Shown: positions 44,263 to 60,345 of the stretch, in pieces
How positions within the stretch are numbered: position 1 is the first letter of the stretch
How the letters are laid out: every line of letters starts with the position of its first letter
NCBI GenBank assembly: GCA_902789555.1
Contig: CADAOF010000001.1
Location: forward strand, 410,995 to 474,994
Direction: 5' to 3'
Origin: an uncultured Lachnospiraceae bacterium
GTDB taxonomy: Bacteria; Bacillota; Clostridia; Lachnospirales; Lachnospiraceae
Length of the DNA: 64,000 bases
The notes under the pieces: generated by a model
Databases searched by the model: none
What the model saw: the letters and a program-made list of their open reading frames with translations, nothing else
Told to the model about the DNA's origin: nothing
Made by a program: the position numbers and the translations under genes

Positions 44263-44286
44263 AGCGGATAACGGGAATCGAACCCG
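44263..44286. repeat. Attachment site, left copy
   Basis: These 24 bases, beginning AGCGGATAACGGGAATCGAA, are identical to 53429-53452. They duplicate the last 24 bases of tRNA-Gly(CCC), including the discriminator base. This copy is the displaced 3' end of the tRNA gene. Confidence 0.9.
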
Positions 44287-44305
44287 ACAAGAAATGTGCG
44301 CGAAT

Positions 44306-44326
44306 CCGCACGGTTAAGCCATTTTT
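44306..44326. repeat. 21-bp direct repeat near left end
   Basis: The 21 bases starting CCGCACGGTTAAGCC recur exactly at 53372-53392, in the same orientation and just inside the other attachment site. They are likely part of the recombination site architecture. Confidence 0.75.
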
Positions 44327-44334
44327 GAAAACGT

Positions 44335-44355
44335 CGTGTCAACTTCGTGTCAACT
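44335..44355. repeat. Integrase arm-type repeats, left (two copies)
   Basis: CGTGTCAACT occurs at 44335-44344 and 44346-44355, an 11-base period. Three further copies in the same orientation lie at the other end of the element. The spacing suits arm-type binding sites for the N-terminal domain of a lambda-type integrase. Confidence 0.7.
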
Positions 44356-44356
44356 T

Positions 44357-45165
44357 CGGTTCTCTGGTCCATATCTCCGCACTGAAATCATACACTATCC
44401 GAAGGCAAATCACAAGGGAAAGAGGGCGCGGAAACACCTTCCAAACCTCAAAGGAATACGCTGCAGCACGATGCCAGGACCAGCAGGAGGATCCTGACAG
44501 ATATGGCAGTTTTATAGAGAGGGGGAGGGGTCGCGCGCGAAGGGCCACGATAGTCACGGTAGGAGGATCTCGATGAATCTCCGGACAACTCTGGCCGGCT
44601 TCGCCTTATTCTTCTTCTCTCGAGGGATCTCCGACCACGCGCGCGAAAATCTGCAAAAGAACAGACTCCACGCCGGTTAGGGAGGGGATACCATAGAACT
44701 CGAAGCGGTAGGGGGGGATACCATGACCGGCAGGAGGATCTCCGTGACGAGCTGGGCAGAGAAATCAAACCGGTGATCGGGGATGCGTTTTAGATTTTCC
44801 CCACTGGCCAGTGCAGCATGGGGAAGATCCGGCCTTGAGAGGACTCAGGACCCCCCCTATGCACGAAAAAAAATAGAGGCCCACGGGTAACCGGTGATCG
44901 GGGTTTAAAAATACATATAGCGAGAGCGACGATCGCACCGTCATCCCTTCCGGAGGCCCATATCGGCCCCAGAATAAGACGGAATTAGGCAGAAAAAGGG
45001 AAAGAAAATTGATAGCAAGTGTTTTTATTTGATTTTGCAAAGAATAAGGTTTTTTTATCGTGCGTCTTCAGGGGGAAGGCGTTTTTTCGGTCCTCTGGCA
45101 GCCGGTTACGGATGGGCATTCCCCTGATCTCCGCGCATAGGTGAATCTGGCAGTAGGGAAAGCAC
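44357..45165. other. 800-bp region without a convincing gene; short direct repeats
   Basis: No frame here has a believable start, composition or similarity. It holds several direct repeats. GGGGATACCAT occurs at 44684-44694 and 44714-44724. AGGAGGATC occurs near 44485, 44561 and 44732. CGCGCGCGAA occurs at 44532-44541 and 44638-44647. A 15-bp repeat AACCGGTGATCGGGG occurs at 44768-44782 and 44889-44903. It may hold a packaging (cos/pac-like) or other cis-acting site. Confidence 0.55.
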
Positions 45166-45194
45166 TTGCATTATTATAATGTTTATGTTATAAT
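45166..45194 (+). promoter_or_regulatory. Promoter of the element's accessory operon
   Basis: TTGCAT (45166-45171), 17 bases, perfect TATAAT (45189-45194) with a TG one base before it. It lies about 48 bases upstream of the DUF1492-like gene. Confidence 0.75.
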
Positions 45195-45242
45195 ATCTAT
45201 AAGCATATAGTTATATCGTGCGGCATGCGTAGGAAGGACCTG

Positions 45243-45662
45243 ATGGACATCGTTGAATGGCTGGAACAGTATCATGACCTTGAACAGTACCCGAAGAGGT
45301 GTGCGCTGAACGTTGACGAAGCAAGGCGCTGCAGCCTCAGGTCAGTGAGCTTCGACAAAGGTGTAAAAACCTCCGGCACATATACTCTTGATCGTCCAGT
45401 GGAGAAGATCGAGACCGCTGAAGCCAGATACAAGAGTGCCAAGGCCAAATTACTGGCGCGGCTGAATGATCTGGCCGACATGATCGACAAGCTCGACGAG
45501 TACGATCATAAACTTGTTCTATTTCACCGGCATCTTTTCGGTCTACAGTGGAGCGATGTTGCCGAGAAGATGGATCTCAGCGAAGCGTCTGTCCGCAGGA
45601 TCCACAAGACCGCGCTGGGAGAATTACAGAAGATCCTTGATGACATGGAGGGGAATACATGA
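45243..45662 (+). CDS. DUF1492-like sigma-70 region 4 type phage regulator
   Basis: This 139-residue protein ends in a sigma-70 region 4-type helix-turn-helix: LFGLQWSDVAEKMDLSEASV followed by RRIHKTALGELQKILDDM. The N-terminal 60 residues are charged and end in a coiled-coil region (KSAKAKLLARLNDLADMIDK). This is the layout of DUF1492/ArpU/RinA-like activators that switch on late genes in phages and satellites. The start at 45243 is preferred because AAGGACCTG precedes it. An ATG at 45225 lacks a ribosome site. The stop overlaps the next small gene as ATGA. Confidence 0.75.
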   Translation: MDIVEWLEQYHDLEQYPKRCALNVDEARRCSLRSVSFDKGVKTSGTYTLDRPVEKIETAEARYKSAKAKLLARLNDLADMIDKLDEYDHKLVLFHRHLFGLQWSDVAEKMDLSEASVRRIHKTALGELQKILDDMEGNT

Positions 45663-45835
45663 CGGAAGAAGCAAGAGCGGCCAGAAACGCATACCACCGC
45701 GAATGGTCGAGAGAACATCCGGAGAAGATCCGCGAATATGCAGCTCGTCACTGGGAGAAGAAGGCCGCCCAGATGAAGGAATATCTCGAAGGAAAGGAGG
45801 AAACCGATGAAGACGAAGACGATCGGGTCCGCTGA
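45659..45835 (+). CDS. Small charged phage-type protein
   Basis: This is a 58-residue protein, too short for many gene callers. It starts MTEEARAARNAYHREWSREH and continues with an EKIREYAARHWEKKAAQM helix and an acidic tail. Proteins with such an aromatic and basic helix (xxYxREWxxxxPEKxREYxxRYWxKK) are frequent in clostridial phages and have no known function. The ATG overlaps the previous stop as ATGA. The end overlaps the following gene by 29 bases. Confidence 0.65.
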   Translation: MTEEARAARNAYHREWSREHPEKIREYAARHWEKKAAQMKEYLEGKEETDEDEDDRVR

Positions 45836-46040
45836 ATACCGCGAGACACTCGAAAATGAAGAAAGACGCTCTCGTCTGCTGGCTTGGCTGGAGAGTGATC
45901 CGGTCAAGAAGCAGGAACACTTGCGGAAGAACAGACGGACCAAGAAGCTGCTCTCCTGCATCCGCAAGATCGTAGGCGATGGCATTGAGACGGCCACAAC
46001 GATGAAACCGGAAAATCCGGAAGACAAACTGAAGAACTAA
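45807..46040 (+). CDS. Small hypothetical protein
   Basis: This 77-residue basic helical protein (MKTKTIGSAEYRETLENEER at the start, QEHLRKNRRTKKLLSCIRKI in the middle) has no family I recognise. AAAGGAGGAAACCG six bases before the ATG supports it as a real gene although it overlaps the upstream one. Confidence 0.6.
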   Translation: MKTKTIGSAEYRETLENEERRSRLLAWLESDPVKKQEHLRKNRRTKKLLSCIRKIVGDGIETATTMKPENPEDKLKN

Positions 46041-46055
46041 GAGGAGAATGAAGCA

Positions 46056-46676
46056 ATGAAAATTGACAAACTGATCAAAGAATACAATGCGGCGATGGCC
46101 GGCAAGGAAAGCCTCACCAATGAGGTCGAACGGCTCCGCGCTGAAAAGATCAACCTGACGGCCGAGGCCGAAGCTGCCGCGAAGGCCGGCGATGTAGAGA
46201 CTTACAAGCAGAAACGTGATGCCGCCTCTCTGGCTGCAGACAATCTCTTCGTCAAGGAGAAACAGATCGAAGGTCTGAGCTGCCTCCGCACTGAGGACGA
46301 AGCGAAAGACGCATGGAAGGAATTTGCCGAGGACTATAACAAGAGCTTCGGCAAGGCGTGGAAGGCATACGAAGCGAAGCGCAAGGATCTCTATAACGAG
46401 TTTCTTCGACTGGTCGACATGCAAAACGCCATGCTGAAGAAGCGCGAAGCATGCGGAGACTGCTGCGGTCTGCCGAGAGCTTCTTTTATGGACAATCCTG
46501 CGGACCGAGTCTTCCCGATCGACCTCCTGCCGATCTCGGCAATGGGGGAGAAGGTCATCCACGCGAATTTCCGTCAACCGGATGTCGCTTTCTTCTTCTC
46601 GTCACTGCTGGCCGGTACTCGCGAAGCATCGCTTTTCAATCAGGTCATCCGTCTGCACATGCCCTTCGAGGAATGA
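46056..46676 (+). CDS. Hypothetical coiled-coil protein
   Basis: This 206-residue protein has a predicted coiled coil over residues 1-130 (EYNAAMAGKESLTNEVERLR, AKAGDVETYKQKRDAASLAA, ALKAYEAKRKD-like stretch). A CGDCCGL cysteine cluster lies near residue 133, followed by a C-terminal part containing MDNPADRVFPIDLLPISAMG. It looks like a small phage scaffold or accessory protein, but no function can be assigned. The ribosome site is AGAGGAGAATGAAGCA. Confidence 0.65.
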   Translation: MKIDKLIKEYNAAMAGKESLTNEVERLRAEKINLTAEAEAAAKAGDVETYKQKRDAASLAADNLFVKEKQIEGLSCLRTEDEAKDAWKEFAEDYNKSFGKAWKAYEAKRKDLYNEFLRLVDMQNAMLKKREACGDCCGLPRASFMDNPADRVFPIDLLPISAMGEKVIHANFRQPDVAFFFSSLLAGTREASLFNQVIRLHMPFEE

Positions 46677-46689
46677 ACCGGAGGCCGTC

Positions 46690-46992
46690 ATGAAGCCGTA
46701 TGCCAAAGACTTTTATTTCAGTCCAGCATGGAGATCCTGCCGCGAGTCATACCTGAAGAAGGTCGGCGGCCTTTGTGAACTCTGCGAAAGGCAAGGGAGA
46801 ATCACTCCGGCCGAGATCGTTCACCATAAGATCCCGATCACTCCGGAGAATATCAGCGATCCCAGCATCACGCTGAGTTTCAATAACCTTCAGGCACTCT
46901 GCCGAGACCATCATGCAGAGGTCCACAAGAAGGACTTTCCTGAACGGCGATACACCATAGACGAATACGGACGAGTGAAAGCACATGACTGA
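46690..46992 (+). CDS. HNH endonuclease
   Basis: This 100-residue HNH nuclease has a start MKPYAKDFYFSPAWRSCRES of the kind usual in phage HNH proteins. It has a first zinc pair in LCELCERQGRITPAEIVHHK, the catalytic HH in VHHKIPI, N in FNNLQALCRDHHAEVH, and the second Cys/His set there. In cos-type phages such enzymes lie next to the small terminase and are needed for DNA packaging. No terminase follows here. It overlaps the next gene by eight bases. Confidence 0.85.
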   Translation: MKPYAKDFYFSPAWRSCRESYLKKVGGLCELCERQGRITPAEIVHHKIPITPENISDPSITLSFNNLQALCRDHHAEVHKKDFPERRYTIDEYGRVKAHD

Positions 46993-47239
46993 CAAACTGA
47001 CGAAATACCAAATCAAGAAAGAGATCGCGGTCCTCTCTACCAGTGGCAAGAAAAGCATGCGCTTCAATTTCTCAAGCTGGAATGACGGCCCCGACACATA
47101 CGAGATCCGTTTATATTTCGATTCTCAGCCTGAAGGATTACTTCCTGGCAAAGGTCTTCTGTTGAACGAGCAGGAGGTCCGGAACCTCTATGCTGCGCTT
47201 CAGGAGCTTTTTGCCGAGGATCCCGATGGCTTAGGATAA
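46985..47239 (+). CDS. PC4/YdbC-like single-stranded DNA-binding protein
   Basis: This 84-residue protein resembles the PC4/YdbC-type fold: KYQIKKEIAVLSTSGKKSMR, then FNFSSWNDGPDTYEIRLYFD, then GKGLLLNEQEVRNLYAALQE with a final helix. The SWN-x-G-P-x-Y-x-IR element and the terminal helix are what I recall of that family, whose members bind single-stranded DNA. The assignment is by pattern only. Confidence 0.6.
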   Translation: MTDKLTKYQIKKEIAVLSTSGKKSMRFNFSSWNDGPDTYEIRLYFDSQPEGLLPGKGLLLNEQEVRNLYAALQELFAEDPDGLG

Positions 47240-47240
47240 G

Positions 47241-47561
47241 GCGGCCAGCCGCAAGGATTTCTTTTTCCTCCGCTTGCGAGGTTCTGGCCGAACACCTCCG
47301 AAACGCTGCTCCTGCGTTAATGGAGCGAAGGTCGAGAACGGCGAAAAGGTCCGTTTCCTCGGCCTTTTTGATATGCCGGAAAGGTCGATGATCCAAACAA
47401 GGCAAATAAGGCCGATTTTCCATTCGAGACGCACAATTCCTCACCGAGACTCACGCAAGCCCGTAGAAAGGCAAATAGAGGCCTTCTCGCGCGAGTTACG
47501 GCAGGAGGTCAAGTCGTGTGCAGATTATATCAGTTTTGTGTTTTCTTTTTTATTTTTGTTG
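47241..47561. other. Intergenic region with a long inverted repeat
   Basis: No convincing gene is seen. At 47244-47290 GGCCAG pairs with CTGGCC and CGCAAG with CTTGCG, which could fold as a stem ending the upstream operon. The rest, up to the promoter at 47562, carries short repeated words such as AGGCAAATA but nothing I can identify. Confidence 0.45.
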
Positions 47562-47591
47562 TTGACACGCGATAAATGCATAGAGTATCAT
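47562..47591 (+). promoter_or_regulatory. Strong promoter ahead of a structured leader
   Basis: Consensus TTGACA (47562-47567), 18 bases, TATCAT (47586-47591). Transcription from here would give a leader of about 110 bases before the ATG at 47712. Confidence 0.7.
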
Positions 47592-47612
47592 ATCCCTGAC
47601 AACATAAAAAGA

Positions 47613-47686
47613 CCGCAGGGAAGGCTGGAGACCAAGGCCCTGCGGCCACACCACTGAAGGCGCGAGAAATATTATAGCATATCCGC
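47613..47686 (+). other. Leader with two hairpins
   Basis: The stem CCGCAGGG/CCCTGCGG (47613-47645) and a second stem GGCGCG/CGCGCC (about 47658-47687) lie between the promoter and the ribosome site AAAGGAGGAATGCT. There is no T run after the first stem, so it may be a translational or RNA-stability element, or a small RNA. Confidence 0.5.
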
Positions 47687-47711
47687 GCCTGATAAGCAAA
47701 GGAGGAATGCT

Positions 47712-47996
47712 ATGATCACCAGAACAATCTCACCTGAACAATTCGCCACCATCGAGAACTCGATCACTGAACTCGATCAGGCCGCCGGAATGCTTGCCAT
47801 CATGCAGAACGCACTCGCCGCGCCAGACGGATCTCCCGATCCGGCCGATCTCACCGAGGCCGCTGCTGGTATCGAGCGGAACCTGCGGAGCATCTCCCAG
47901 AATCTCGACAAGCTTGCAAGCGAGATCCTGAAGGGCAATCTCGACATCACCGGCGCAGACCTGACACCGACCACCGCGCAGTTCCTGAAGGCATAA
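47712..47996 (+). CDS. Small hypothetical phage-type protein
   Basis: This 94-residue, mostly helical protein is low in Lys (MITRTISPEQFATIENSITE, IERNLRSISQNLDKLASEIL). An excellent ribosome site (AAAGGAGGAATGCTATG) and its own promoter support expression. No known domain. The strong promoter and leader suggest high or regulated expression. Confidence 0.65.
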   Translation: MITRTISPEQFATIENSITELDQAAGMLAIMQNALAAPDGSPDPADLTEAAAGIERNLRSISQNLDKLASEILKGNLDITGADLTPTTAQFLKA

Positions 47997-48047
47997 GCAG
48001 GAAGGCCGGTCTCATTGCCCGTAACGAGTGCAGGAGGAAGGAGGACC

Positions 48048-48317
48048 ATGAACCCGGAGACAATGGATCCCGACAACATGTCGAAGCAGCAAGGCAGCAG
48101 AGGCCATAAGGCCATGCGCATCAATATGGCAATCTCGGATCTCAACTACCAGTATGCGAAGGATCTGGCCAAGTACTACGACAGTAACGTGACGGCGATC
48201 GTGAACGGCATCATCGACCTATACCGCAGAAATCATCCGGAGATCCTCGCAGACGCGATCCGGTACCACCAGAACCGGCAGGAGCTGATCGGCAAAGAAA
48301 AAGAGGCGGACACCTGA
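48048..48317 (+). CDS. Small protein with a ribbon-helix-helix-like region
   Basis: This is an 89-residue protein. After a disordered start (MNPETMDPDNMSKQQGSRGH) the segment KAMRINMAISDLNYQYAKDL and AKYYDSNVTAIVNGIIDLYR has the strand-helix-helix pattern of Arc/CopG-type DNA-binding proteins. GGAAGGAGGACC sets the start at 48048. An 11-codon upstream extension is rejected. It may regulate the element. This is inference from pattern only. Confidence 0.55.
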   Translation: MNPETMDPDNMSKQQGSRGHKAMRINMAISDLNYQYAKDLAKYYDSNVTAIVNGIIDLYRRNHPEILADAIRYHQNRQELIGKEKEADT

Positions 48318-48398
48318 TCGGGCCGCCTCACCAGATACCGCTTGACGATATAGAGAATCAGCGATAATCTGTAATTGAATTTTTACAAGAGATTCGGG

Positions 48399-48426
48399 AA
48401 AGGCTGGTCTGCACACCGGCCTTTTT
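48399..48426 (+). terminator. Terminator of the accessory operon
   Basis: The stem AAAGGCTGGT/ACCGGCCTTT (one G-T pair) is followed by TTTTT. It separates the rightward genes from the converging 48426-48638 gene. Confidence 0.75.
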
Positions 48427-48638
48427 CATTTGTCCGGATTCAATTCGTATTCCCGAATGTCATTCCATCCCGAAGCGAACGGAAGACCTAACCTTGCCAG
48501 CAGTCTGGCGGCTTCGACCAGATGCTTCTGGAGTCTCTTCTTGTCTTCGGACCATGCGATTTTCGCTCTCGGCTTATGATGCCTCCAGTGTCGATGGCTC
48601 CGCATGAAAGCCTCGTATTTTTTGTTCTTTACATCCAT
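48426..48638 (-). CDS. Small basic hypothetical protein
   Basis: This 70-residue protein is rich in His and Arg (MDVKNKKYEAFMRSHRHWRH, AWSEDKKRLQKHLVEAARLL). AGGAGG seven bases before the ATG at 48638 supports the start over one two codons earlier. It is downstream of the primase across the candidate origin. No known family. Confidence 0.55.
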   Translation of the reverse strand: MDVKNKKYEAFMRSHRHWRHHKPRAKIAWSEDKKRLQKHLVEAARLLARLGLPFASGWNDIREYELNPDK

Positions 48639-48674
48639 GATCATGCCTCCTGCTTTTGTGGTGGTTTTGGTCCT

Positions 48675-48853
48675 TAGGGAAAAAAGGGAGGAAAATTCTC
48701 ACTCGCTATATTTTTTATATTTACGCCTGTTTTAGCCATAAATATTTTTTATTTTAAATCGGCTCCCTTTTCTCCCTTTTCTCCCTACGCCTTGTAGTTA
48801 TGCGGTTTTCCGAAGGTATCATTTCTCCCTACCATTTCCCTTTTCTCCCTGAT
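48675..48853. repeat. Candidate replication origin: iterons flanking an AT-rich stretch
   Basis: Left of an AT-rich stretch (48704-48762) lie AGGGAAAAA and AGGGAGGAAAA. Right of it lie at least five copies of TCTCCCT or close variants in the opposite orientation (48763-48790 and 48827-48853). The right block runs into the 3' end of the primase-helicase gene. Opposed iterons around an AT-rich core beside rep is the arrangement known from SaPI origins. Confidence 0.65.
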
Positions 48854-50234
48854 TATCGAACGGAAAGCATCCATCAGGGGGATCTATGAAACCAGTTAGG
48901 GATTTTTCAGGGAGATTTCTCTTGTGATCTATCCCCTTGAAATACTCGGCTCCGGTCGTTTTAATTTCGCCGAATCCCTTCGCCTTCATGGACCGGTAAA
49001 AATTCTGCTTCGTGAGTGACTGTCGGCCCATGTCCTGGCAGAAGTTTTCATACTCACGATACAACGACGATTTCTTGATCCGGCCGTCCGGAACCTTCTC
49101 TGTCGTTTCTGTCAAAAACGCTTCTACAGTGTCCGAATCGCACCGAAGTCGTGTCACTGCTTCGACGGATCGCGGAGATTCCGCAATCGTACCGCGCTGG
49201 TACATTCTTTCGAGTGCTGCCACGCTGGCATGGATGAAGTCATCGATATCGGCCGACAACATGTCGAAGAAGTCGGGATCCTTCTTCTCCGGAACCTTAT
49301 CCATCGTCAGGATCATCAGTCTCCGGTAAAAGCCGTTTGTCCGCTCGGCTTTGACGATCGGCAGCTCGTTCGTGGAAAAGATCAGCTTTGCAAACGATAC
49401 GAAACTGATGGCATCCTTCCCTTTTGCCTCGGCAGAAATGGAGTCTTCACCGAGGACCTTCTTCAGCGTCGAAACATCCGACAGAGCGTCGAGCTCCAGA
49501 TCCGCGCAACTGTTCAAGAGCTTGCCCAGAAGATTGATAGGCGCGAACCGCTGCGTCAACTGATAAAGACTGACATTCGAGATATTCTCCAGACCGACCA
49601 TTTTATTGAGCATCCGGATCACTGTCGATTTTCCCGTTCCACCTTCACCGACTAAGACGAGGAATTTCTGCTGCCGTGTGTCTCTGGTCATGCAGAGGCC
49701 GGCGAACTGGCAAAGCATCTCGACATCTTCCGGAGTTTCGCAGATGGATCTGAGCCATTCCTGAACGACTGTTCCGTGCTGGCCGCCTTCGGGATCGTAG
49801 TCGTGAGGGATTTGATTGACGGCCAGATAGCTGGGATCGTGGGGAATGATTTTTCGGTTCACCGGATCATAGAATCCGTTCCGGAAGTTGATCCACTCCA
49901 CCGGATACCGGTTCAAGTCTTCGGCAGTGATATTCAGCTTCGCATCAGTGACGAAGAGGTCGTAAATCCTTTTGATCGTCGGACTCCTCACGTACTGCGG
50001 ATAGATGAGATCCCGAATCATGGTCTTCAGCACCGCACCGGACTGGTCCTGACGATAAACGCCTTCGCGGTAGATATAGGGGATACCTCCGAGGATAAAG
50101 ATATTCTTTTCTTCCTTCAGGTATTCAAGGATCGCGAAGTCATAAACGCCAGTGATTTGGTCATTCCGGAAAAGGTGGAACCGGTCGAGGTCGATCGCGT
50201 TCACCTCAGCATGGTATTCTGCTGGACGTTTCAT
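48819..50234 (-). CDS. Primase-helicase of the P4/D5 type (replication initiator)
   Basis: This 471-residue protein has a D5-type N-terminal region (NRYPVEWINFRNGFYDPVNR, YLAVNQIPHDYDPEGG) and a superfamily 3 helicase core with Walker A LVLVGEGGTGKSTVIRMLNK around residue 205, Walker B NSCADLELDALSD, and FAKLIFSTNELPIVKAERTN with YRRLMILTM. A C-terminal winged-helix-like part (SSLYREYENFCQDMGRQSLT) could bind iterons. It would unwind and perhaps initiate replication of the excised element. AGGAGGTGGACGGA sets the start at 50234. It overlaps the upstream gene by 29 bases. Confidence 0.9.
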   Translation of the reverse strand: MKRPAEYHAEVNAIDLDRFHLFRNDQITGVYDFAILEYLKEEKNIFILGGIPYIYREGVYRQDQSGAVLKTMIRDLIYPQYVRSPTIKRIYDLFVTDAKLNITAEDLNRYPVEWINFRNGFYDPVNRKIIPHDPSYLAVNQIPHDYDPEGGQHGTVVQEWLRSICETPEDVEMLCQFAGLCMTRDTRQQKFLVLVGEGGTGKSTVIRMLNKMVGLENISNVSLYQLTQRFAPINLLGKLLNSCADLELDALSDVSTLKKVLGEDSISAEAKGKDAISFVSFAKLIFSTNELPIVKAERTNGFYRRLMILTMDKVPEKKDPDFFDMLSADIDDFIHASVAALERMYQRGTIAESPRSVEAVTRLRCDSDTVEAFLTETTEKVPDGRIKKSSLYREYENFCQDMGRQSLTKQNFYRSMKAKGFGEIKTTGAEYFKGIDHKRNLPEKSLTGFIDPPDGCFPFDNQGEKGNGREK

Positions 50235-50445
50235 TCCGTCCACCTCCTGACTGCAAGAACTTGCTCCATTTGAGCACACTCTCAGCCGCTTCTAGCTCGC
50301 CAACGGTAAACCGATCCGGATGATCCAGCCGTCGTTTCAGCGTGTCCGTGGAAATTCCCATCTTCCGCGCGAGCTGGTCCTGCGTGTGCCCGGTGTAGGC
50401 CATGCCGGCGCGAATTGCCTTTGCATACTGTTCACCTTGTTTCAT
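50206..50445 (-). CDS. Small HTH (XRE-like) DNA-binding protein
   Basis: This 79-residue protein has a helix-turn-helix (GHTQDQLARKMGISTDTLKR) and a second helix region (HPDRFTVGELEAAESVLKWS). It resembles Cro-like or excisionase-type proteins in phage early regions. It ends inside the primase gene. The ribosome site is CAGGAGGTGAATC. Confidence 0.75.
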   Translation of the reverse strand: MKQGEQYAKAIRAGMAYTGHTQDQLARKMGISTDTLKRRLDHPDRFTVGELEAAESVLKWSKFLQSGGGRNETSSRIPC

Positions 50446-50692
50446 GATTCACCTCCTGCAGTTTCTCGGGAAAGTACGCTGCATGTCTGTAGATATCCAT
50501 GCGGTCGTTCTGAGTCTTCAGGATCTCATAGACCAGACTGAGCTTGTCAGGCAACTGGCCGACATCCGGATCCACGCCGGTCACATGCATGGCCAAGGCC
50601 TTCAGTACCAGGCCAATTTCTTCCTCCGTCAGGACCTGGAGCATACGCAAGTTTTCCGGCAGGATGATAATTCCGTTGTCAAAGCGTTCCAT
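50432..50692 (-). CDS. DUF6291-like phage protein
   Basis: This 86-residue protein with core FDNGIIILPENLRMLQVLTE and YEILKTQNDRMDIYRHAAYF resembles the N-terminal part of phage replication-associated DUF6291 proteins, which pair with primases or replisome organisers. The start at 50692 follows GGAGTGACGAAG. A 44-codon extension overlaps the upstream gene and is rejected. It overlaps both neighbours slightly. Confidence 0.55.
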   Translation of the reverse strand: MERFDNGIIILPENLRMLQVLTEEEIGLVLKALAMHVTGVDPDVGQLPDKLSLVYEILKTQNDRMDIYRHAAYFPEKLQEVNHETR

Positions 50693-50912
50693 CTTCGTCA
50701 CTCCAATTCTCGACACATTCCAGCCTTGCCGCTGCAGCCTGGTAGAACGTGTCCTCTCGTACGCCTTCCAGGTCTTCAGCAAGAACGAGCAATTCCCGGT
50801 ATGTTCTTTCCTCCTGCCGCACATGATCGTTAATGAGCAGGAGGTCGCTCATGATGAACGACCGTATCACGGCAGCCAGATCATCGTTCCTTTTCGTGTT
50901 AGCGCTGGCCAT
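50679..50912 (-). CDS. Small hypothetical early protein
   Basis: This 77-residue acidic helical protein (MASANTKRNDDLAAVIRSFI, LLINDHVRQEERTYRELLVL) has no recognised domain. GAGGTGACGTG before the ATG at 50912 supports the start. The end overlaps the following gene by 14 bases. Confidence 0.6.
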   Translation of the reverse strand: MASANTKRNDDLAAVIRSFIMSDLLLINDHVRQEERTYRELLVLAEDLEGVREDTFYQAAAARLECVENWSDEDGTL

Positions 50913-50916
50913 CACG

Positions 50917-51117
50917 TCACCTCGCGCCGCCTTCCTGGGCGATCTGTTCAATTATTGCAAGGACTTCGACCTTGTCTTCCGGTGAAAGCTCATGCCGCAT
51001 TTTCCGCGACATATCAAATTCACTCATTCCGAGTTTTTCAGCCACAGCCCACTGCGGCACTCCCGACTGCTTCATACGCTGCCGGATTTCATTGTTGCAT
51101 TTTGGTAGAACTCTCAT
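50917..51117 (-). CDS. Small HTH regulator, first gene of the early operon
   Basis: This 66-residue protein carries a helix-turn-helix (MKQSGVPQWAVAEKLGMSEF, then MSRKMRHELSPEDKVEVLAI). It is divergent from the repressor gene, a Cro or Str-like position. GAGAGGTATAGAAC precedes the ATG. It could act as the early activator or anti-repressor of the element. Confidence 0.7.
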   Translation of the reverse strand: MRVLPKCNNEIRQRMKQSGVPQWAVAEKLGMSEFDMSRKMRHELSPEDKVEVLAIIEQIAQEGGAR

Positions 51118-51418
51118 GTTCTATACCTCTCTTTTTTGTTTTTGCGATTCCCACATTCAGTTGTCAAAATGCCACTTTTCAAACGTTCGCTCCGGGCCCG
51201 GATCAAAAAATCAAAGATAAGCGTTGACATTGTTGTTATTGCTTGCTATAACTGAAGTGCATCGCAGATTACGAGTTTAGATATTTGTTTCGTATCTGCC
51301 GACAGAATAACATCAACAAAAGGCTGCGTCAACGGCCCGGCAGGAAGTCACGGTCGTTAACGAATGCGAGCCCGAAATCGCGCGTTGTCTCGTAAATGCC
51401 GATGGGATGGAGGAGAAA
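51118..51418. promoter_or_regulatory. Divergent control region of the element
   Basis: This 300-bp region lies between the early operon (leftward) and the repressor-integrase operon (rightward). The rightward promoter is clear: TTGACA (51224-51229), 17 bases, TATAAC (51247-51252). Its leader is about 165 bases. A leftward TTGACA lies near 51171-51176 with no good -10, so the early promoter may need activation. Operators for the repressor are expected here, but I see no clear palindrome. Confidence 0.65.
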
Positions 51419-52246
51419 ATGCCTAAGAAGAAAACTGATGAAAAAGATAAGCAAAAAAGACGATTCGATCCTGACAAATTCCCCATGCGCTTGCTTAACT
51501 GCATTGAAGGAAAAGCCGGAACAAGGGGAAAGGTTACCAACAGAGCCCTGGCGAAAGTGTTAGACCTGGGATCCGACAGTCAGATCAGCGATTATCTGTC
51601 TGGCAGGAGTGATATGAGTTACGAAAACTTGTGTAAGACTGCCGACTATTTCGGCGTCACCGTCGATTACCTTGTCGGACATAGGAAAGCATGGAAGACC
51701 GACGAAGCCACAATCAAGGTCTCCGACTATATCGGGCTCTCGGATGAGGGTATAGAAGCACTGCATATAGCAGCACACACAACACGGCATGATGACGGAT
51801 ATTATAATAACCTTCGGTTGCTCAGCTTCATAGACCGAGAACTCAAAGCCACCTTAAAGCGGCAGAAGGCATTTGCGAAATGGTTGCCGCAGACAAAAGC
51901 GTTGCCTTCGATTTTTGTGGACTTGGAAAACTATATTTGTGGATCAGGTCAAATAGGCTTCGCTGAATATGATGGAAAGATGATAGGCTCCGGCTTAACA
52001 ATCGATCAAATATTCCGCACAAGTGCTTTTGAAGACGCCAGACATAAGTTATCCGAGATGGCAAAAGAAATCGGCCTTGTTGGCGATGTATATGCTCGAA
52101 CATGGGAAGAATATGCGGATCAAAAAGAAGCACTCGAAAATGATGTCCCTTTTAGTCTGGAAGATAATATAGATGAAGTTATGAAGATGTTTGCCGAACA
52201 AACAGAGGAGGATCAAATAAATGAAGAACAGAACGCTGAAGGCTGA
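51419..52246 (+). CDS. Phage-type repressor with XRE helix-turn-helix
   Basis: This 275-residue protein has a basic N-terminus, then an HTH at about residues 40-95 (TNRALAKVLDLGSDSQISDY, SYENLCKTADYFGVTVDYLV) and a long C-terminal domain of unknown type (EGIEALHIAAHTTRHDDGYY, EEYADQKEALENDVPF). It lacks the Ser/Lys LexA-type autoproteolysis residues I would expect of an SOS-cleaved repressor, so derepression may depend on a partner protein, as with Stl of SaPIs. GGAGGAGAAA sets the start. It overlaps the integrase by 26 bases. Confidence 0.8.
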   Translation: MPKKKTDEKDKQKRRFDPDKFPMRLLNCIEGKAGTRGKVTNRALAKVLDLGSDSQISDYLSGRSDMSYENLCKTADYFGVTVDYLVGHRKAWKTDEATIKVSDYIGLSDEGIEALHIAAHTTRHDDGYYNNLRLLSFIDRELKATLKRQKAFAKWLPQTKALPSIFVDLENYICGSGQIGFAEYDGKMIGSGLTIDQIFRTSAFEDARHKLSEMAKEIGLVGDVYARTWEEYADQKEALENDVPFSLEDNIDEVMKMFAEQTEEDQINEEQNAEG

Positions 52247-53261
52247 ACAGTTACCGTCCGGGAGCTGGCGAGTGCGCGTATATCTCGGAGAAGTGAACGG
52301 CAAAAAGACATGGAAATCGGTCACGGCAGACACTGCCTCGGATGCCCTGAGGAAAGCCGCACTTTTCGAAATGCCAACGAATGAAGAAATGACCGTGCTG
52401 CAGGCGTGCGAACGGTATATCCGTGAAAAGAGCGAAGGCAATACACCTCTCTCCCCTTCCACGCTTCGAGGATATCTCGGCACGGTGAACGAGTACATCA
52501 AGAAGGATAAGCTCGGCGGAGTCAAGATCCACAAGGTCGACACTTCGATGTTGCAGACCTGGATCGGCCGGATGAATGTCTCGAAGAAATCAAAGAAGAA
52601 TCATCTGTACTTTGTGCTTGCCGTGCTGAAATATTTTGAGATCGACAAGATCTTCCGGGTAAGACTTGCCGAGCCGGACCAGAAAGAACTCTACACGCCG
52701 ACGGTGCAGGAGATCAATGCAGTGATCGCCCAGGCACTGAAGCAGGGAGACGATGAACTTGTCCTCGCGATTCATCTGGGCAAGCTGGGCATGAGGCGCG
52801 GAGAGATCTGTGCGCTGAACGCTGAAGACTTTGACAGACAGACCGGCCACGTATACGTGACGAAAGCCTATGCGAAGTCTCCTGACGGCACTTTCGTGCT
52901 GAAGGCCCCGAAGACAAAGGGGAGCCGTCGAGCCGTACCGGTCACGCCTGAAATTCTGGACATGCTGCCGGAAAGCGGCCCGATTATCTCCTACTCGCCC
53001 GACTGCCTGACCAACAGATTCGCCCACGTTGTGAAGCGTGCCGGTGTACATCCCTTCCGTTTCCATGATCTCAGATCCTTCTTCGCAAGCTCACGGTATG
53101 AGATGGGAATCAGCGACCGCACCGCGCAGGATCTCGGCGGATGGGAAACCGATCGGATAATGAACAGGAACTACACCCGGTCAATTCCTGACTGGAAACA
53201 GAGAGACGAAGAAGCAATTATCCTCTTCCACTCCAGGAATTTCATCACGAAGCAGGGCTAA
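52221..53261 (+). CDS. int: Tyrosine recombinase/integrase
   Basis: This 346-residue integrase has an AP2-like arm-binding N-terminus (LPSGSWRVRVYLGEVNGKKT), a SAM-like core-binding domain (LSPSTLRGYLGTVNEYIKKD) and a catalytic domain. Catalytic residues seen are Arg in GKLGMRRGEICALNAEDF, the Lys in KTKGSRRAVPVTPE, H-x-x-R in FRFHDLRSFFASSRYE, Trp replacing the second His in LGGWETDRIMN, and Tyr in RNYTRSIPDW. It lies about 170 bases from its attachment site in tRNA-Gly. AGAGGAGGATCAAATA precedes the ATG. Confidence 0.95.
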   Translation: MKNRTLKAEQLPSGSWRVRVYLGEVNGKKTWKSVTADTASDALRKAALFEMPTNEEMTVLQACERYIREKSEGNTPLSPSTLRGYLGTVNEYIKKDKLGGVKIHKVDTSMLQTWIGRMNVSKKSKKNHLYFVLAVLKYFEIDKIFRVRLAEPDQKELYTPTVQEINAVIAQALKQGDDELVLAIHLGKLGMRRGEICALNAEDFDRQTGHVYVTKAYAKSPDGTFVLKAPKTKGSRRAVPVTPEILDMLPESGPIISYSPDCLTNRFAHVVKRAGVHPFRFHDLRSFFASSRYEMGISDRTAQDLGGWETDRIMNRNYTRSIPDWKQRDEEAIILFHSRNFITKQG

Positions 53262-53272
53262 CGGTCCTTTTT

Positions 53273-53303
53273 CGTGTCAACTCGTGTCAACTCCGTGTCA
53301 ACT
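53273..53303. repeat. Integrase arm-type repeats, right (three copies)
   Basis: CGTGTCAACT is present at 53273-53282, 53283-53292 and 53294-53303, in the same orientation as the two left copies. They start 12 bases after the integrase stop. Confidence 0.75.
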
Positions 53304-53366
53304 TTTTGAGAAACGAATGCGGAAATACTCCGCAAAGGCGCGGATGGCAAAAAAAAGAAAACATTC

Positions 53367-53410
53367 AAAAACCGCACGGTTAAGCCATTTTTCGGCACTC
53401 GTGCGGTTTT
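53367..53410 (+). terminator. Terminator of the integrase gene
   Basis: The stem CCGCACG (53372-53378) with CGTGCGG (53400-53406) is flanked by AAAAA and TTTT. The 5' arm is part of the 21-bp repeat shared with the left end. Confidence 0.65.
53372..53392. repeat. 21-bp direct repeat near right end
   Basis: Exact copy of 44306-44326, in direct orientation, 36 bases from the attachment core. Confidence 0.75.
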
Positions 53411-53428
53411 GTGTTGCAGATATGCGGA

Positions 53429-53452
53429 AGCGGATAACGGGAATCGAACCCG
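53429..53452. repeat. Attachment site, right copy (inside tRNA-Gly)
   Basis: Identical to 44263-44286. It contains the 3' acceptor strand and most of the T arm of the tRNA. Confidence 0.9.
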
Positions 53453-53499
53453 CCTATCCAGCTTGGGAAGCTGGTGTTCTACCAATGAACTATATCCGC
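53429..53499 (-). tRNA. tRNA-Gly (anticodon CCC)
   Basis: A 71-base cloverleaf on the minus strand. The acceptor GCGGATA/TATCCGC pairs perfectly, the D arm is GTTC/GAAC, the anticodon stem CCAGC/GCTGG encloses loop TTCCCAA (anticodon CCC), and the T arm is GCGGG/CCCGT with loop TTCGATT and discriminator T. CCA is not encoded. Its 3' 24 bases are the integration site and are regenerated by the element, so the tRNA stays intact. Confidence 0.93.
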
Positions 53500-53607: not shown

Positions 53608-56600
53608 TCAATCTTCCTCTTCTTTTTTGCGGCGGACACGCATCACGCCGAGAAGCGCTGCCGTTGCCGCGCCGCCCATCGTCATGAACAGAGGCAGGTT
53701 GGAAGCGTCTCCGGTAGGAGGCGTGGCGGCCGTCACCTTCTTCGTTTCGGTGTAGGTCTTGCCGTCCGGACCGGTAACTTCGCCCGTGTAGATATAGGCG
53801 CCGTTCGCATCCGTCTCGGTTTCGATCTCTTCATCGACAACGACTTTGACGTGTTCTTCGTTGTTCTGGCAGATGAATGTGAAGGTTGCCTTGGTGTAGC
53901 TGGTGGCATCGTCGCCTTCCCACTCCACGGAATCCAGCTTCCAGTCATGGTCGCTTTCCACTACCGCATCCGCTTCTTCGTCCAGACCAAGGTCTTCGTT
54001 GCGTTCCTCGGTCGTGGTCGTCACGTCACTGTTTTCGCAGGTGAGCGTTTCGAATTCGACTTCAAGGACCGGATTGCCGGCTTCGACCGCATTGCGGGTC
54101 GCATAGGCAAAGCTGACGGTACCCGCTTCCTCATCCACTTCATAGCTGGAGAACAGATCCTCCACGTCGGCGCCGGGTTCCGCAGGCGTGATCACGCTCT
54201 TGAACTTCAGGCTTTCGGTATCGTAAGTGAGAGTGAGTTTGCCGTTGTTGACGTTTTCATCCTCAGTCACGGTAATGACCGTCGTGTCGGAATCAGCATC
54301 GGTCTCAGCCGAAGGCGTCGCGGACATCAAGCTGACCGTACCGGTCATCGGCAGCTTGTTCACGGTACCGGAGGTACGGACGACTGCCGTCAGACCGCCG
54401 AAGGCGGGTTCGGTTTCCGCTTCAGTCTCTTCTTCCGTAGGAGCCTCAGTTTCCGGCTCGGTTTCGGCCTCGGTCACTTCTTCGGTAGACGCTTCAGTCT
54501 CCGGCTCCGTTTCGGCCTCGGTCACTTCTTCGGTAGGTGCTTTAGTCTCCGATTCGGTTTCCGCTTCGGTCACTTCTTCGGTAGGCGCTTCGGTCTCGGC
54601 TTCGGTGGCTTCCTTGGTTTCCTCCTCGGCAGGAGCAGGCTCCTCCGCAGGTTCCGTTACCTCTTCGGTCGGCTCCTCGGCAGGTGCGGTCGGCTCAGCC
54701 TCAGTCGGAGCTTCAGTCTCTGCTACAGGAGCAGGAGCTTCAGTCTCCGCAGGAGTCTCGGCAGGTTCTTCCGCAGGTTCCGTCACCGCCTCGGTCGGTT
54801 CCTCGGCAGGTGCGGTCGGCTCGGTTTCAGTCGGGGCTTCAGGTTCCGTTACCGGTGCTACAGTAATAGCTCCTTCAATTCTTACGGAATCCATCATTCC
54901 CTGTATTCTCTCAGTGGAGTAACTGGGGACAGGTGCTGCTCCATTCAACGCGTCTACTGCATCGAGGTCTGCATTATACAGGGAGGAAAGATTCGTTGCG
55001 CCTTCCAGTCGTCCTATAAACGCTGCATCTACTTCCGTAGCTTCCTCAGCTTCAAAATCGATATCGCTGAAGTCGACAAAATAGATCCCTTTCGACGTGT
55101 TGTCTCCAATAAAGACGCCTTCAGTCTCCGTCTCCTCATCGTAATAATAGGCCATGGAGTAAGCTGTCAGATCATCACCGAAGCTCAGCACGTTGACGTG
55201 TGCGACTTCTCCAAACACTGCTCTTTCAGCACCACGTGCCGGGTCATAAAACTGAAGCCACTGATATAAGAGTCCATCTGTTGCGAGGAAGTAATAAACC
55301 AGCGCTAAAGGATATGTTGTGCCACTGTAGGTGAAATCCGGAATAACACCGCCAAACGCTGCCGCAACAAAAGTACCATAACTGCTCAAAGTGAAATAGG
55401 AAATCGAATCTCCTTCCACTGTCAACCAATTACTGCTTGCATTAAAGCCGATAAAGTCAGGAGTAAATGAAACCTCTTCATCATCAATTGTCAGCGTATA
55501 ATGAGGATAGCTGGCAATATCGATCAACGCCCATTGTGGATTGATCACAAAATGATAATCCGAGTCATACCCGTAATTATTTGTGATGTCAAAGCGATGG
55601 ATGTCATTATCCGCATCGTTGCCATAGACATAATTGCCGGACCGTCCGCCGCCGGTAAAGGCGCTGAAGGCCTCTCCTTCGGTGGAGACGCTCATATCAC
55701 TCAGATCGATCTTAGCAAAGCGTACATCACTGTTGCTGTAAGCAACCTGAGCGTAGATCTCGGCATCCATTGATTGACCTTTAGTCACATTAATGGTTGC
55801 TGTGGCCTTTAGATGAGGTTCTGCCTTTGTCGTAGCCGTAATCTCAGCAGTTCCGAGGCCCACAGCTGTGACCAGACCGTCTTCGTCAACGGTAGCCACA
55901 GTCTCATCTGAAGACGTCCAGGTCACGCCGCGGTCATCCAGCACCACGGGCTGCACATCGGCCTTAAGCTGAACAGTAGGAATCACGTCAAGGATCAGCG
56001 TGGAGGTTTCAGGAGTGACAGTGATACTCCAGGCTTCGGTCGGATCAACAGGCATGTCAACATATTGCTTTTGGTACAGGTAGATCGGTGCCGGATAATA
56101 GTAATAGAAAGATCCATTCAAGAACGCAACACCACCGCCAAAACCGGAACCGTTCACCAGCAGATAATTATCTTCCGTATAGGTAAATGTATCTGCATAG
56201 CCTGCATCCTCCCAGTTGGCAAAGGGATAACCTCCTTGGTAATATCCCAGCCACGTTCCAAGATCATTATTCTGGAAGCGAATTCCTTCTGCTGTCATCC
56301 AAACCGTCGAGCTGTCCGCATCTTCACCGTTGATATAGGTGCCGAATTCCTCATCAACCGTGATCGCCGTCGGCACACTGTCCACAAAATATTCTGGAGT
56401 TGAAGCCCCAAGAGCATAGGCAGGCCCAGCTGTTTTGCTGCTGGCGATAATGTATTCCTCACCGGCAACCAGCTTATCGGTCAGTACATAGATCGGAACT
56501 TTCATCGTAATGTCTTCGTCAGAAAGTTTCGCAAGTTTGGCCGTCTCGTTGCAGGCATAGTCAGCAACCACCACAGCTACTGCAGGATCGTCCAATGCCG

Positions 56601-59600
56601 ATGCGTCGAAAGTGTATGTCACTTCTTCACCGGCCGCCGACTGAGCGGGAAGCTCGGCTTTCAAGTACTCAATGTTGCCGCCAAGATCATAGACCGCAAT
56701 ATACGCAATGTACTCGTTATCCTGAGCGGTTACCGTGATTTTTCCGGTTTCCTGATCTACTTTGACTTCCGTTACTTTGGGAGCGGTATTATCAACAGTG
56801 AAGTCATACCCCAGATAAGCGCCTGATCCAAGGATCGTTTCCGAATCAGTATTAAGCAACAAAGCCTTAAACTCATCTTCTGTCAGCGTTCCGGATGCTG
56901 CATCATTAAGCTGCATAGCATAGTATTCCGGAATCGCATAGTAACCGATGCGGATCTTGTCACCTTCCTCAACCCCCAGATCCGAAAGCGCAAGGTTCGT
57001 CTTGGTGTTGATCGGGTTATTATTCATCCATCGGCCTTCATTAACATAGAAGTATAACGGGTATGCGTTGCTGCTCATGCTGTCAACAGCGAGCACCTCT
57101 GCAGGTTCCCCATTATCATCCAGCTTAACCACAGCAATAGCCATAGTGCCGGCTGCGCGAATGAGAAGTGAATTGAAGTTTGTTATTGCAGCTTCACTAT
57201 TCAGCGCAAAACGAGCCTCGGGAATCTCTTTTTCGATCATATACGGGTTGCCGCTGAATCTGGCTGCAGTACCATCCTGATACTTTACAGTCATGTAATT
57301 CGTGCCTTTAGCGCCGCTGTATGTAAGCCTCTTGTTCCCATACAGTTCTTCAAGGTACGAGTTCGCATCGTACATGGAGGCGTCGGTAAAGCTGCCGAAG
57401 AAGCCCTGCAGCGGGATGGAGTGCTCGACTTCAAGCAGTTCGCCGTCGTCGCTCACGCTCTGGCAGGTCACGAAGGTGTAGCCCTGCACCCACATGCCGT
57501 TCACAAAAATTTCATCGATGTACGGCTGCCAGGAGGAGACGTCAATGCTGACCTTAACGGTCTTGCTCGTTCCGGCCGGAACAAGGACGGTGTCCTCATC
57601 TTCTTCCGTACCGTTCATGGAATGGAGCCAATCCAGAAGGAGCTTGGCATCCAGGGACGTCACAGCCTTGTCTTCGTCCAGATCCGCGACCGGCGTGCTC
57701 AGATCAAGATCCTTGCCGTCACGCTTGCCGGTCAGATAGTCCAGAATGGCCTGTACGTCATCGGTATCCGTATCGCCGTCCTTGTCCACGTCGTGGAGCG
57801 GCGCCTGAGGGAATTCATAGCTGACATTGCCGGGCATGTCCATGGCAGTGTCATCCATGTAGTAATTCTCGCCGTCGAAAGCAAGGAACTGCGTGAACAG
57901 ATCCGTGCTGAGGTCGTAGATCAGGTCATATTCGGAAGGATTGTAGATGGTGAAGGAATAGCCGTAAGTACCGGCAATGCTCTGTCCGAGCTCGGCCTTT
58001 ACTTTGCCGTCTTCATAAGAGATCGTCGCATCCTTGCCCATCATCAGGAAAGACCTGGCGGCAACGGCATTGCCGATGCTGGCAAGGCCGGCACCCTGGC
58101 GAAGGATGGGATAGTAAGTTTCGGATTCCGCTTCGATCATCGGGACTGCCGTAGACATCAGCAGGCTGTGCGCCAGCTGACGCTGCGTAAACTGTCCGGG
58201 GAAAGCCGCTTCCACGTATGCCTTAAGGGCCTTCTCATAGTATTCGCTGAACAGGCCCATCATGCCGGTCACCTGAGGCGCCGCCATGGAGGTACCGGAC
58301 ATGTTCTCATAGCCGTCAGTGGTAAAGCCGTTGACGGAATAAATGTTGCCGCCGGGAGCGGTGATCTCCGGCTTGATCAGCAGGGAGCCGTTGCCGCCCC
58401 AGGAGCTGAAATCGGACATGGTCGGTTCATCGGCAACAACGGAGGAGACCAGCTCATTCTTCACTTCTACCTTGCCGGTATAATAATTATAATCACCGGC
58501 CGTTCCGGCTTCAGATGCTTCAATGACCGCTTCACCGTTGTCGAGGCTCATGGAGACCATCGGGAAATCGCCTTCGTACCCGGTAAGTGCCATGCGGATC
58601 TCGCCGGGCTGATTGTTCACGACGATCACGGCTGCCGGTTCGTAGGGTATTGCATTATTGCCTTTTTCAAAGAAGCTCAGTTTGCCGCGGAAGACCATGA
58701 CGATCTTGCCCTTCAGCGGAACAGCTTCATTAACGGCTGCGTACTCTTCCTCTTCGCCGACACCGTCAATGAGCACGTAGTCATACGTCCCCGCGATCGT
58801 CTTGATCTCAGGATTGCCGTAAGGCACGGGCGGGTTTTTCGAGGTATCCGCCGTGGTTTCCCAGTAGTACACGGTCTGGTCGCCGTTGAACACCAGCGGA
58901 TAATCGGTAAGACCGATGCTTTCTGCAGAGGCTACGCCCAACGTATTGACAAACGATCCGGGAGAACCACCGGTCGATTTGTTGATATCCTCGATGTAGT
59001 TGTAAGGATAGTCCGTATTGGTATAGTTGCCGCCGGCTCCGTTGTTGAACGCATAGGAGTTGCCGGCAGAGGTGACCATGACCAGTCCCCCCTCCGTCAA
59101 GCTTTCCATGATCTTCTGGTATTCATCGGAAAAGGCAAAACCGACGACTGCCGAACCGAGCGAGAGGTTGACCGCATCGCAGTTCATGATGATGGCGTCC
59201 TCGATCGCGGCAAAATAGTCGCTGTCATAGGCGCCGCCGGCGGCACCGAAGACCTTCGCGGTCAGGACCTGAGCGTCCGGCGCTACGCCGACGGTCAGGA
59301 CTGCTTCCCGCGCATCCACGAACTTGCCGTTCTGCTTCACGAAACGGTTTGCCGCCGCAATGCCGGCCACGTGCGAGCCGTGTTCACTTCCGCCCGTGCT
59401 GTTGTCGGTGACATAGTTCTCATCAATATAGTTGTAGGCATAGGGAAGCTTGCTGTTGATGTAAGCAGACTCCGCCGAAACCATGTGTTTGCCGTTCACG
59501 TTGTTGGCATTCAGCTGGGCTTCCAGACTCTGCAGTTCCGCCTTGGTCAGCAGACCGTAGGAATCCAGCGTATTGCCGTCCTTCGTCAGGGCATATTCAA

Positions 59601-60267: not shown

Positions 60268-60345
60268 CCTCTTGTCTTCCTTTCCCTGCAACAGAGCCCG
60301 TTCGGAACGTTTTACGGACGACAGGGCTGCCGCATAAAGTGAATA

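Follow-up and report, generated by a model that had tools for sequence, protein, structure and literature searches.

A probable cos-packaged phage satellite with its own HNH nuclease in tRNA-Gly(CCC) of an uncultured Lachnospiraceae bacterium

Structure of the island and its insertion site

We analysed a stretch of 64,000 nucleotides from an uncultured Lachnospiraceae bacterium (GenBank assembly GCA_902789555.1, contig CADAOF010000001.1, positions 410,995 to 474,994), called the window below. In it, an integrated unit of 9,166 bp (about 9.2 kb) sits at a tRNA-Gly(ccc) gene. This island is very probably a phage satellite of the kind packaged from a cohesive-end (cos) site, and it encodes an HNH nuclease of its own. 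Its features are as follows, with E-values for family matches; ORF is open reading frame, HTH helix-turn-helix and TerL the large terminase.

44263-44286: att core, left copy, exact 24-bp direct repeat
44303-44356: left arm-type repeats AANCCGCACGGTTAAGCCATTTTT and TCGTGTCAACT (repeat families D1, D6), putative integrase sites
44470-44747, plus: three GGAGGATC-type repeats (D8, D12)
44768-44782, plus: cos core AACCGGTGATCGGGG in a second copy (D19)
44852-44935, plus: cos-like site (profile of phage HNH-TerL gaps; phage contig ends)
45225-45662, plus: ArpU-like late activator, sigma-region-4 (phrog_36, 1.3e-19)
45659-45835, plus: small phage protein (phrog_14214, 1.6e-4)
45807-46040, plus: small ORF, no Pfam or PHROG family at E 0.05
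46056-46676, plus: orphan protein of 206 amino acids with helical N-terminus, no credible relative
46690-46992, plus: HNH nuclease, predicted packaging role (Pfam, 2.4e-6; 37 IMG/VR relatives)
46985-47239, plus: PC4-like protein (Pfam PC4, 5e-4, below cut-off)
47712-47996, plus: ORF without assigned family (Pfam/PHROG scan)
48048-48317, plus: small ORF, ribbon-helix-helix-like by eye, all matches weaker than E 0.005
48426-48644, minus: ORF without assigned family (same scan)
48669-48857, minus: predicted replication origin, AGGGAGAAA iterons and AT-rich stretch (position and sequence conserved by related rep genes)
48819-50234, minus: Rep, helicase only (DUF5906/D5_N), about 471 amino acids, ATG at 50234
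50206-50445, minus: HTH protein of 79 amino acids, 48-50% identical to a phage early gene
50432-50692, minus: small ORF without assigned family (same scan)
50679-50912, minus: small ORF without assigned family (same scan)
50917-51117, minus: small HTH protein in Cro-like position (phrog_17740, 3.8e-8)
51118-51406: putative divergent control region, containing the palindromes TCCGGGCCCGGA and TCGTTAACGA
51407-52246, plus: HTH repressor (HTH_3, 1.9e-4, below the Pfam cut-off; phrog_8, 5.3e-8)
52221-53261, plus: tyrosine integrase (Pfam Phage_integrase, 1.3e-14)
53273-53392: right arm-type repeats (repeat analysis), putative integrase sites
53429-53452: att core, right copy, exact repeat forming the 3' end of tRNA-Gly(ccc)
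53429-53499, minus: tRNA-Gly(ccc)

An earlier reading of the letters without database searches (the sequence-only reading) had described the terminal repeat with one copy in the tRNA 3' end, the adjoining integrase, the repressor in the same direction, and opposite-strand small phage genes including an HNH nuclease and a sigma-like activator, and all of these stand. The divergent early operon, which it let end in a D5/P4 primase-helicase, does end in a D5_N/DUF5906 helicase, but the N-terminal primase part is absent. It overlooked the arm-type repeats at both ends and the 0.93-kb noncoding left end that contains the cos-like site. The name ArpU is used here for proteins of the phrog_36 type.

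All 16 translated ORFs are stop-free. When they were scanned with Pfam and PHROGs, structural, lysis, large-terminase and conjugation families gave zero matches, in line with the same reading, and families for plasmid partition or mobilisation were not recognised either. Two ORFs match PHROGs named terminase small subunit: the HNH ORF over its HNH part only (phrog_4581, 7e-15), and the 79-amino-acid HTH protein weakly (phrog_309, 0.034).

The left flank gene (mutY by eye) is present in 14 of 16 genomes of the genus, the source genome included. In 5 of the 15 congeners (G005, G009, G006, G001, G007) it directly adjoins an intact tRNA-Gly(ccc), and alignment of these genomes to the joined island flanks leaves no insert, so that the empty site which the sequence-only reading proposed to look for does exist. 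The other eight congener loci have no tRNA-Gly(ccc) within the few kb fetched and are uninformative on occupancy. Because the repeat coincides exactly with the end of the tRNA and the site is empty in these five genomes, the island stands beyond chance. In an Rfam scan, the tRNA was the sole credible match.

A cos-like site shared with HNH-TerL phages

Relatives of the HNH nuclease were confirmed at 37 IMG/VR loci, out of 39 pattern matches. TerL lies 3' of HNH in 23 of the 37, at a distance of at most 222 bp in 12 loci, 449-759 bp in nine and farther in two. Among the 14 with no TerL found, eight stop 0-67 nt past the HNH match and four within 800 nt, while L176 and L177 run more than 5 kb past HNH with no TerL match.

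When the noncoding DNA of the island was compared with these loci, 44840-44932 matched the gap between HNH and TerL in L145 at E 5.6e-6, against 0.053 for the best shuffled control. The corresponding gap of L161 matched more weakly (0.015), and the seven other listed matches were at 0.064 or above. A profile was trained on 10 phage HNH-TerL gaps, leaving out L148 and L149 (near copies of L146), L155 and the longer-gap loci. It gives a single significant match in the window, at 44852-44935 (E 2.7e-8), with the next window match at 0.58 and the best of 30 Markov controls at 2.1. The match is kept in 10 of 10 single drop-outs (E 1.4e-8 to 3.3e-5), and also without both L145 and L161 (E 3.3e-5). 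Across 1.17 Mb of collected loci, every profile match down to E 1 falls in an HNH-TerL region of a phage or in the island, those weaker than 1e-3 being judged by position alone; L147 and L155, both outside the training set, are among them. A scan with an exact cos-motif pattern returned 34 IMG/VR contigs, including the phage contig L039 discussed below, and was not used, being by rough estimate no more than chance.

The ends of the phage contigs point to the same site. Twelve loci stop within 800 nt after HNH, and nine of them (L144, L152, L157, L163, L170, L143, L153, L160, L175) stop 36-39 nt past the start of a C-run, seven terminating in AC. We mark the 44852-44935 element as cos because 9 of 12 contigs end at this same spacing. 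In the uncut phage gaps listed, AC/C occurs 36-41 nt past the C-run in 9 of 9, where AC/C formed part of the search pattern and L151 has a second match at 31. The island reads GGGTAAC/CGGTGATC at 41 nt past its C-run, which places the predicted cut after 44891 (44891/44892). The GGAGGATC-type repeats to its left might, speculatively, be binding repeats for terminase or HNH.

In five of the nine contigs TerL lies near the opposite end, at 52-71 nt in G749, G750 and G755, 484 nt in G753 and 1,043 nt in G748, so that each has the look of a complete linear genome opened at the cos-like site. Their lengths are 27,596 bp (G749), 26,831 bp (G750), 29,119 bp (G755), 22,485 bp (G753) and 28,166 bp (G748), of which the island makes up 0.332, 0.342, 0.315, 0.408 and 0.325, respectively. 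The contig-to-island ratio is thus near 3 in four of five (3 x 9,166 = 27,498 bp). Size limits imposed by cos packaging are described for P4 and SaPIbov5 in the part of PMC6893505 that concerns them.

A replication module from circular mini-elements

The nearest relatives of Rep are encoded on 12 IMG/VR contigs of 5.3-12.7 kb (51-72% amino-acid identity), and four of these are circular by exact 127-bp terminal repeats (L026, L030, L031, L034). Six aligned relatives have 703-730 amino acids with an N-terminal primase-type part, and the island Rep starts after that part; Toprim in the L026 Rep scores E 1.2e-4, below the cut-off. Over rep and 100-230 bp past its stop, the island shares 67-70% DNA identity with 10 of 12 contigs, after which similarity ends, and the match to L035 and L036 is limited to rep (57-62%). 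For the four circles, identity is 67-71% in the helicase part at the amino-acid level and 67-69% over rep and origin DNA.

Beside rep, three AGGGAGAAA iterons stand in 9-bp phase near 48763-48787, and other repeat words occupy the same position in several relatives (AGGGCA, AGAGCACTT, ACGGAGAAA). The origin alignment took 9 of the 12 relatives, leaving out L033, L035 and L036. In 16 of 27 regions the repeats outnumber those in every one of 20 shuffles, but the island has 4 copies against a shuffle maximum of 4, so the case for its origin is built on conserved position and sequence. Among L025-L036 and L093-L107, the origin word varies while its position stays constant, as if origin specificity diversifies.

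The three circles scanned (L026, L030, L031) encode TerL, a full primase-helicase and a serine recombinase, none of which was recognised in the island, and no tyrosine integrase was seen by eye in the four circles. Capsids are likely absent from them: no capsid family is among those shown for 29 proteins of the three circles (the 25 commonest of 62 PHROG families), and 10 proteins without family matched no capsid or portal family. The four circles, of 10.2-12.2 kb, are possibly satellites with their own terminase.

A Rep scan of the genome collection found 15 further loci at 39-58% identity, 7 of them titled Lachnospiraceae. Several are integrated elements with integrase, repressor and primase-helicase, and by eye HNH, small terminase (TerS) or TerL; L103, L104 and L107 look like prophages. 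The Lachnospiraceae-type integrated elements L102, L106, L096 and L105, which have an integrase, a repressor and a helicase or primase-helicase and also carry HNH, TerS or TerL (by eye), likely form a wider satellite group. In 98 genomes around the source genome, the best Rep match besides its own is at 30% (E 3.9e-40). Among 50,697 phage records, 1,336 match Rep, all below 60%, the best-ranked with 28.5% identity over 83%.

Phage relatives of the integration and regulatory genes

The nearest IMG/VR integrases are 47-51% identical (L037-L040 and, over part, L045), and by eye several of these contigs carry genes of tail and lysis type. A number of the IMG datasets probably derive from ruminant metagenomes. 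In L038, L039, L040 and L045 an att core with one mismatch to that of the island (23/24) lies behind the integrase. L038-L040 have 38 exact nt in common with the mutY/tRNA-Gly(ccc) junction of the congeners G009 and G006; 29 of the 38 are conserved tRNA, and the added weight is nine flanking bases. A similar arm-repeat layout, with CGTGGAAACT as the unit, stands beside attP in L038-L040. No integrated prophage was seen at the tRNA-Gly(ccc) site, and use of the site by phages is judged from att sequence alone.

The temperate phage contig L039 resembles the island in integrase (47%), att core (23/24), HTH protein (48%), ArpU (31%) and HNH (53-56%), and its HNH gene is followed by TerL, portal and capsid. 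Closer single relatives occur elsewhere (HNH up to 64%, ArpU up to 40%). Because these families are widespread and closer relatives exist, L039 is related to the source lineage without being the source itself. Taken together, the island is a chimera, its Rep and origin related to the terminase mini-elements and its integration and packaging parts to the phage lineage.

An S24 peptidase was not detected in the island repressor at E 0.05 (Pfam), and the S24 domain is present in both phage repressors tested (L038, L039). A repressor of this form would fit release by a helper protein, not SOS cleavage. As a query against 397 genomes of the family, it matched in 51, nearly all across the HTH part only, and the sole long match outside the island is a second element in the source genome (see below).

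Alternative explanations

The satellite reading is strengthened by the empty site, the mini-element replication module, HNH and cos without TerL or capsid, and the one-third size. Since the island has cos and HNH of phage families, its own integrase and origin, and no virus shell genes, travel in the particles of those phages is very likely. Several points weigh against this. The cos match weakens to E 0.0075 without L145, L161 and L124, and the profile was built after the initial blastn match to L145. Contig L153 ends in CAA and L175 in CGG rather than AC, L162 stops within the C-run, and L159 and L164 stop within the HNH gene. The TerL-side ends have no common start sequence, which leaves the overhang undefined, and G753 (22,485 bp) departs from the size rule with a ratio of 0.41. 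Moreover, a prophage with the TerL of this phage lineage was not found in 16 genus genomes (its own included), in a search run without positive control whose empty outcome shows nothing by itself, and the island has no recognisable gene for TerS, capsid remodelling or interference.

One alternative is that the island is a remnant of an L039-type temperate phage, rearranged after the loss of its genes for head, tail and lysis. Such phages do have counterparts of the integrase, att core, HTH protein, ArpU, HNH and cos-like site, so that of the refuting evidence named by the sequence-only reading, relatives with head and tail genes, a part does exist; for Rep and origin there are none at this closeness. 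Gene order and orientation speak against it: the phage runs early genes, arpU, HNH, cos and TerL on one strand, whereas the island has cos, arpU and HNH on the plus strand, convergent with the early operon. Rep and origin come from another element family, with no Rep match across the phage contig G442 (two stretches, best E 2.4), the 16 ORFs are free of stops, the origin is conserved, and the repressor lacks an S24 domain, unlike the two phage repressors tested. We hold a remnant to be very unlikely. 

That the element at 44852 serves conserved regulation rather than cos cutting, for example as an ArpU target before late operons, is also very unlikely; it does precede arpU in the island and the TerL operon in the phages, but a promoter would not cause 9 of the 12 phage loci that stop near HNH to end at the same C-run spacing. 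Least credible of all is that the island stands alone as an integrative, plasmid-like element descended from the circular terminase mini-elements, with the phage parts as cargo and no helper packaging. The 67-69% DNA identity of Rep and origin to circular 10-12 kb contigs favours it, but neither partition nor mobilisation families of plasmids were recognised, the circles' TerL and serine recombinase are missing, and cos-like site and HNH make most sense in packaging.

Comparison with known satellites

The closest parallel to a cos-packaged satellite is offered by the cos-type Staphylococcus aureus pathogenicity islands (SaPIs). Their HNH nuclease is reportedly phage-encoded, as Quiles-Puchalt and others are said to have found in 2014, whereas the island encodes its own. 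SaPIbov4 and SaPIbov5 have a phage cos in a small island and are packaged by a helper cos phage, according to the relevant part of PMC5052747; the cos-like site of the island resembles that of the phage lineage. SaPIbov5 is described as having a capsid-protein homologue, Ccm, and no capsid gene was recognised in the island, whose Rep is helicase-only. The island would work like a cos-type SaPI.

We do not claim membership in the phage-inducible chromosomal islands (PICIs), because exclusive att use apparently does not hold, there is no primase part and the late-type genes run convergently. In the PICI description of PMC6092414, as far as its class features go, att sites are never occupied by prophages, primase and rep (separate or fused) are followed by the origin, and size is typically about 15 kb, usually about one third of the helper; genes found in PICIs alone, interference with phages, and induction and transfer that depend on a helper belong to the class as well. 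Another source gives an average of 9.5 kb (PMC10803314). Integrase and master repressor together, divergent from the early genes, are found in the island, as is the absence of structural and lytic genes from its 16 ORFs. Its 9,166 bp are 0.32-0.34 of four of the five phage contigs with HNH and TerL at opposite ends and 0.41 of the fifth, which stand in here for a putative helper. By att sequence, exclusivity appears to fail, as L038, L039 and L040 share the 38-nt junction, and on this point a strict PICI assignment is not upheld. The island has rep and an iteron-type origin without separate or fused primase. The sequence-only reading, which saw the PICI gene order here, is right for integrase, repressor, rep and origin but not for the late-type operon, and its broader proposal of a satellite is supported by the evidence above.

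P4 has a D5-type helicase and one-third size, and its alpha protein keeps the primase part; the island shares helicase and size, without the primase part or a recognised Sid-like gene. P4 is packaged at cos by the helper terminase and encodes Sid, and capsid-forming PICIs (cf-PICIs) carry an HNH packaging gene plus capsid, portal and both terminase genes, as outlined in the sections of PMC10690885 on these elements. With cf-PICIs the island has HNH in common, but capsid, portal and terminase genes were not recognised in it. The head, tail, lysis and large-terminase genes of a prophage are likewise not found.

Proposed life cycle

In the lysogenic state, the S24-less repressor would silence the divergent early operon until repression is lifted by a helper from the HNH-cos-TerL phage lineage. 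The integrase would then excise the island at tRNA-Gly(CCC), and the helicase-type Rep would open the iteron origin beside its gene and drive replication, with priming from host or helper. ArpU would activate the plus-strand operon, so that the island's own HNH is made, and HNH together with the helper large terminase may cut the concatemer at the cos-like site (44891/44892). Helper heads could be filled with three units, whose 27,498 bp roughly make up a full head, or a single unit could go into a head of one third the size.

No small-terminase gene was seen between HNH/cos and TerL in the phage-lineage contig examined. A more tentative thought, which we consider possible but doubtful, is that the island HNH is a hijacking tool that steers the helper large terminase to the variant cos of the island, while the island competes with the helper for the tRNA att site; HNH would then achieve with a nuclease what in SaPIs is the task of a TerS of their own.

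These results tie a satellite of a little-studied bacterial genus to a phage lineage by cos, attachment site and genome size, and predict for it both the type of helper and a base-exact cut position. They suggest that satellites may be assembled from a terminase mini-element replication module and a phage integration-packaging module, and that exclusive att sites, the rule for PICIs, may not hold generally. With the cos profile, such satellites can be looked for even where a terminase gene is absent. In satellite literature on Lachnospiraceae, gut, Clostridia and rumen, titles and abstract openings name no such element, subscription papers being mostly outside this scope.

Other observations

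For the 206-amino-acid protein, two weak matches in 392 genomes of the order (E 2.5e-4 and 4.5e-4) were rejected, being antisense to long ORFs; its structure model was too weak to use (predicted local distance difference test, pLDDT, 59.8), and Foldseek gave no match at E 0.001. The repressor model was also too weak (pLDDT 37.9). As single-protein IMG/VR queries, the repressor, the 206-amino-acid protein, the 79-amino-acid HTH protein and ArpU yielded no loci, and the HTH and ArpU relatives were found solely by tblastn on loci already collected. In PADLOC (10 of 16 ORFs), HNH matched weakly (best 5e-4) and the 206-amino-acid protein matched PbeC at 0.02; no phage-interference family was recognised in these or, by Pfam and PHROGs, in the 16 ORFs.

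The PC4-like gene is separated from the ORF that follows it by a noncoding gap of about 470 bp (47240-47711), with no credible Rfam family and no match among the phage gaps compared. On the other side of the tRNA, at 53608-60291 (minus), an ORF of 2,227 amino acids adjoins it, subtilisin-like and with long TEAPTE-type repeats by eye.

The source genome (G000) contains a second, 6.5-kb element between exact 47-bp repeats (contig C8, 44057-50561; L139, L140), one repeat lying in tRNA-Thr(ggt) at 50519-50593. Rep, HNH and cos gave no match in it. It carries a tyrosine integrase and an excisionase-like ORF (both by eye), a PC4-like ORF, a repressor of the island family (27%, E 1.7e-13) and a divergent HTH gene whose product is 43% identical to that of the first early gene of the island.

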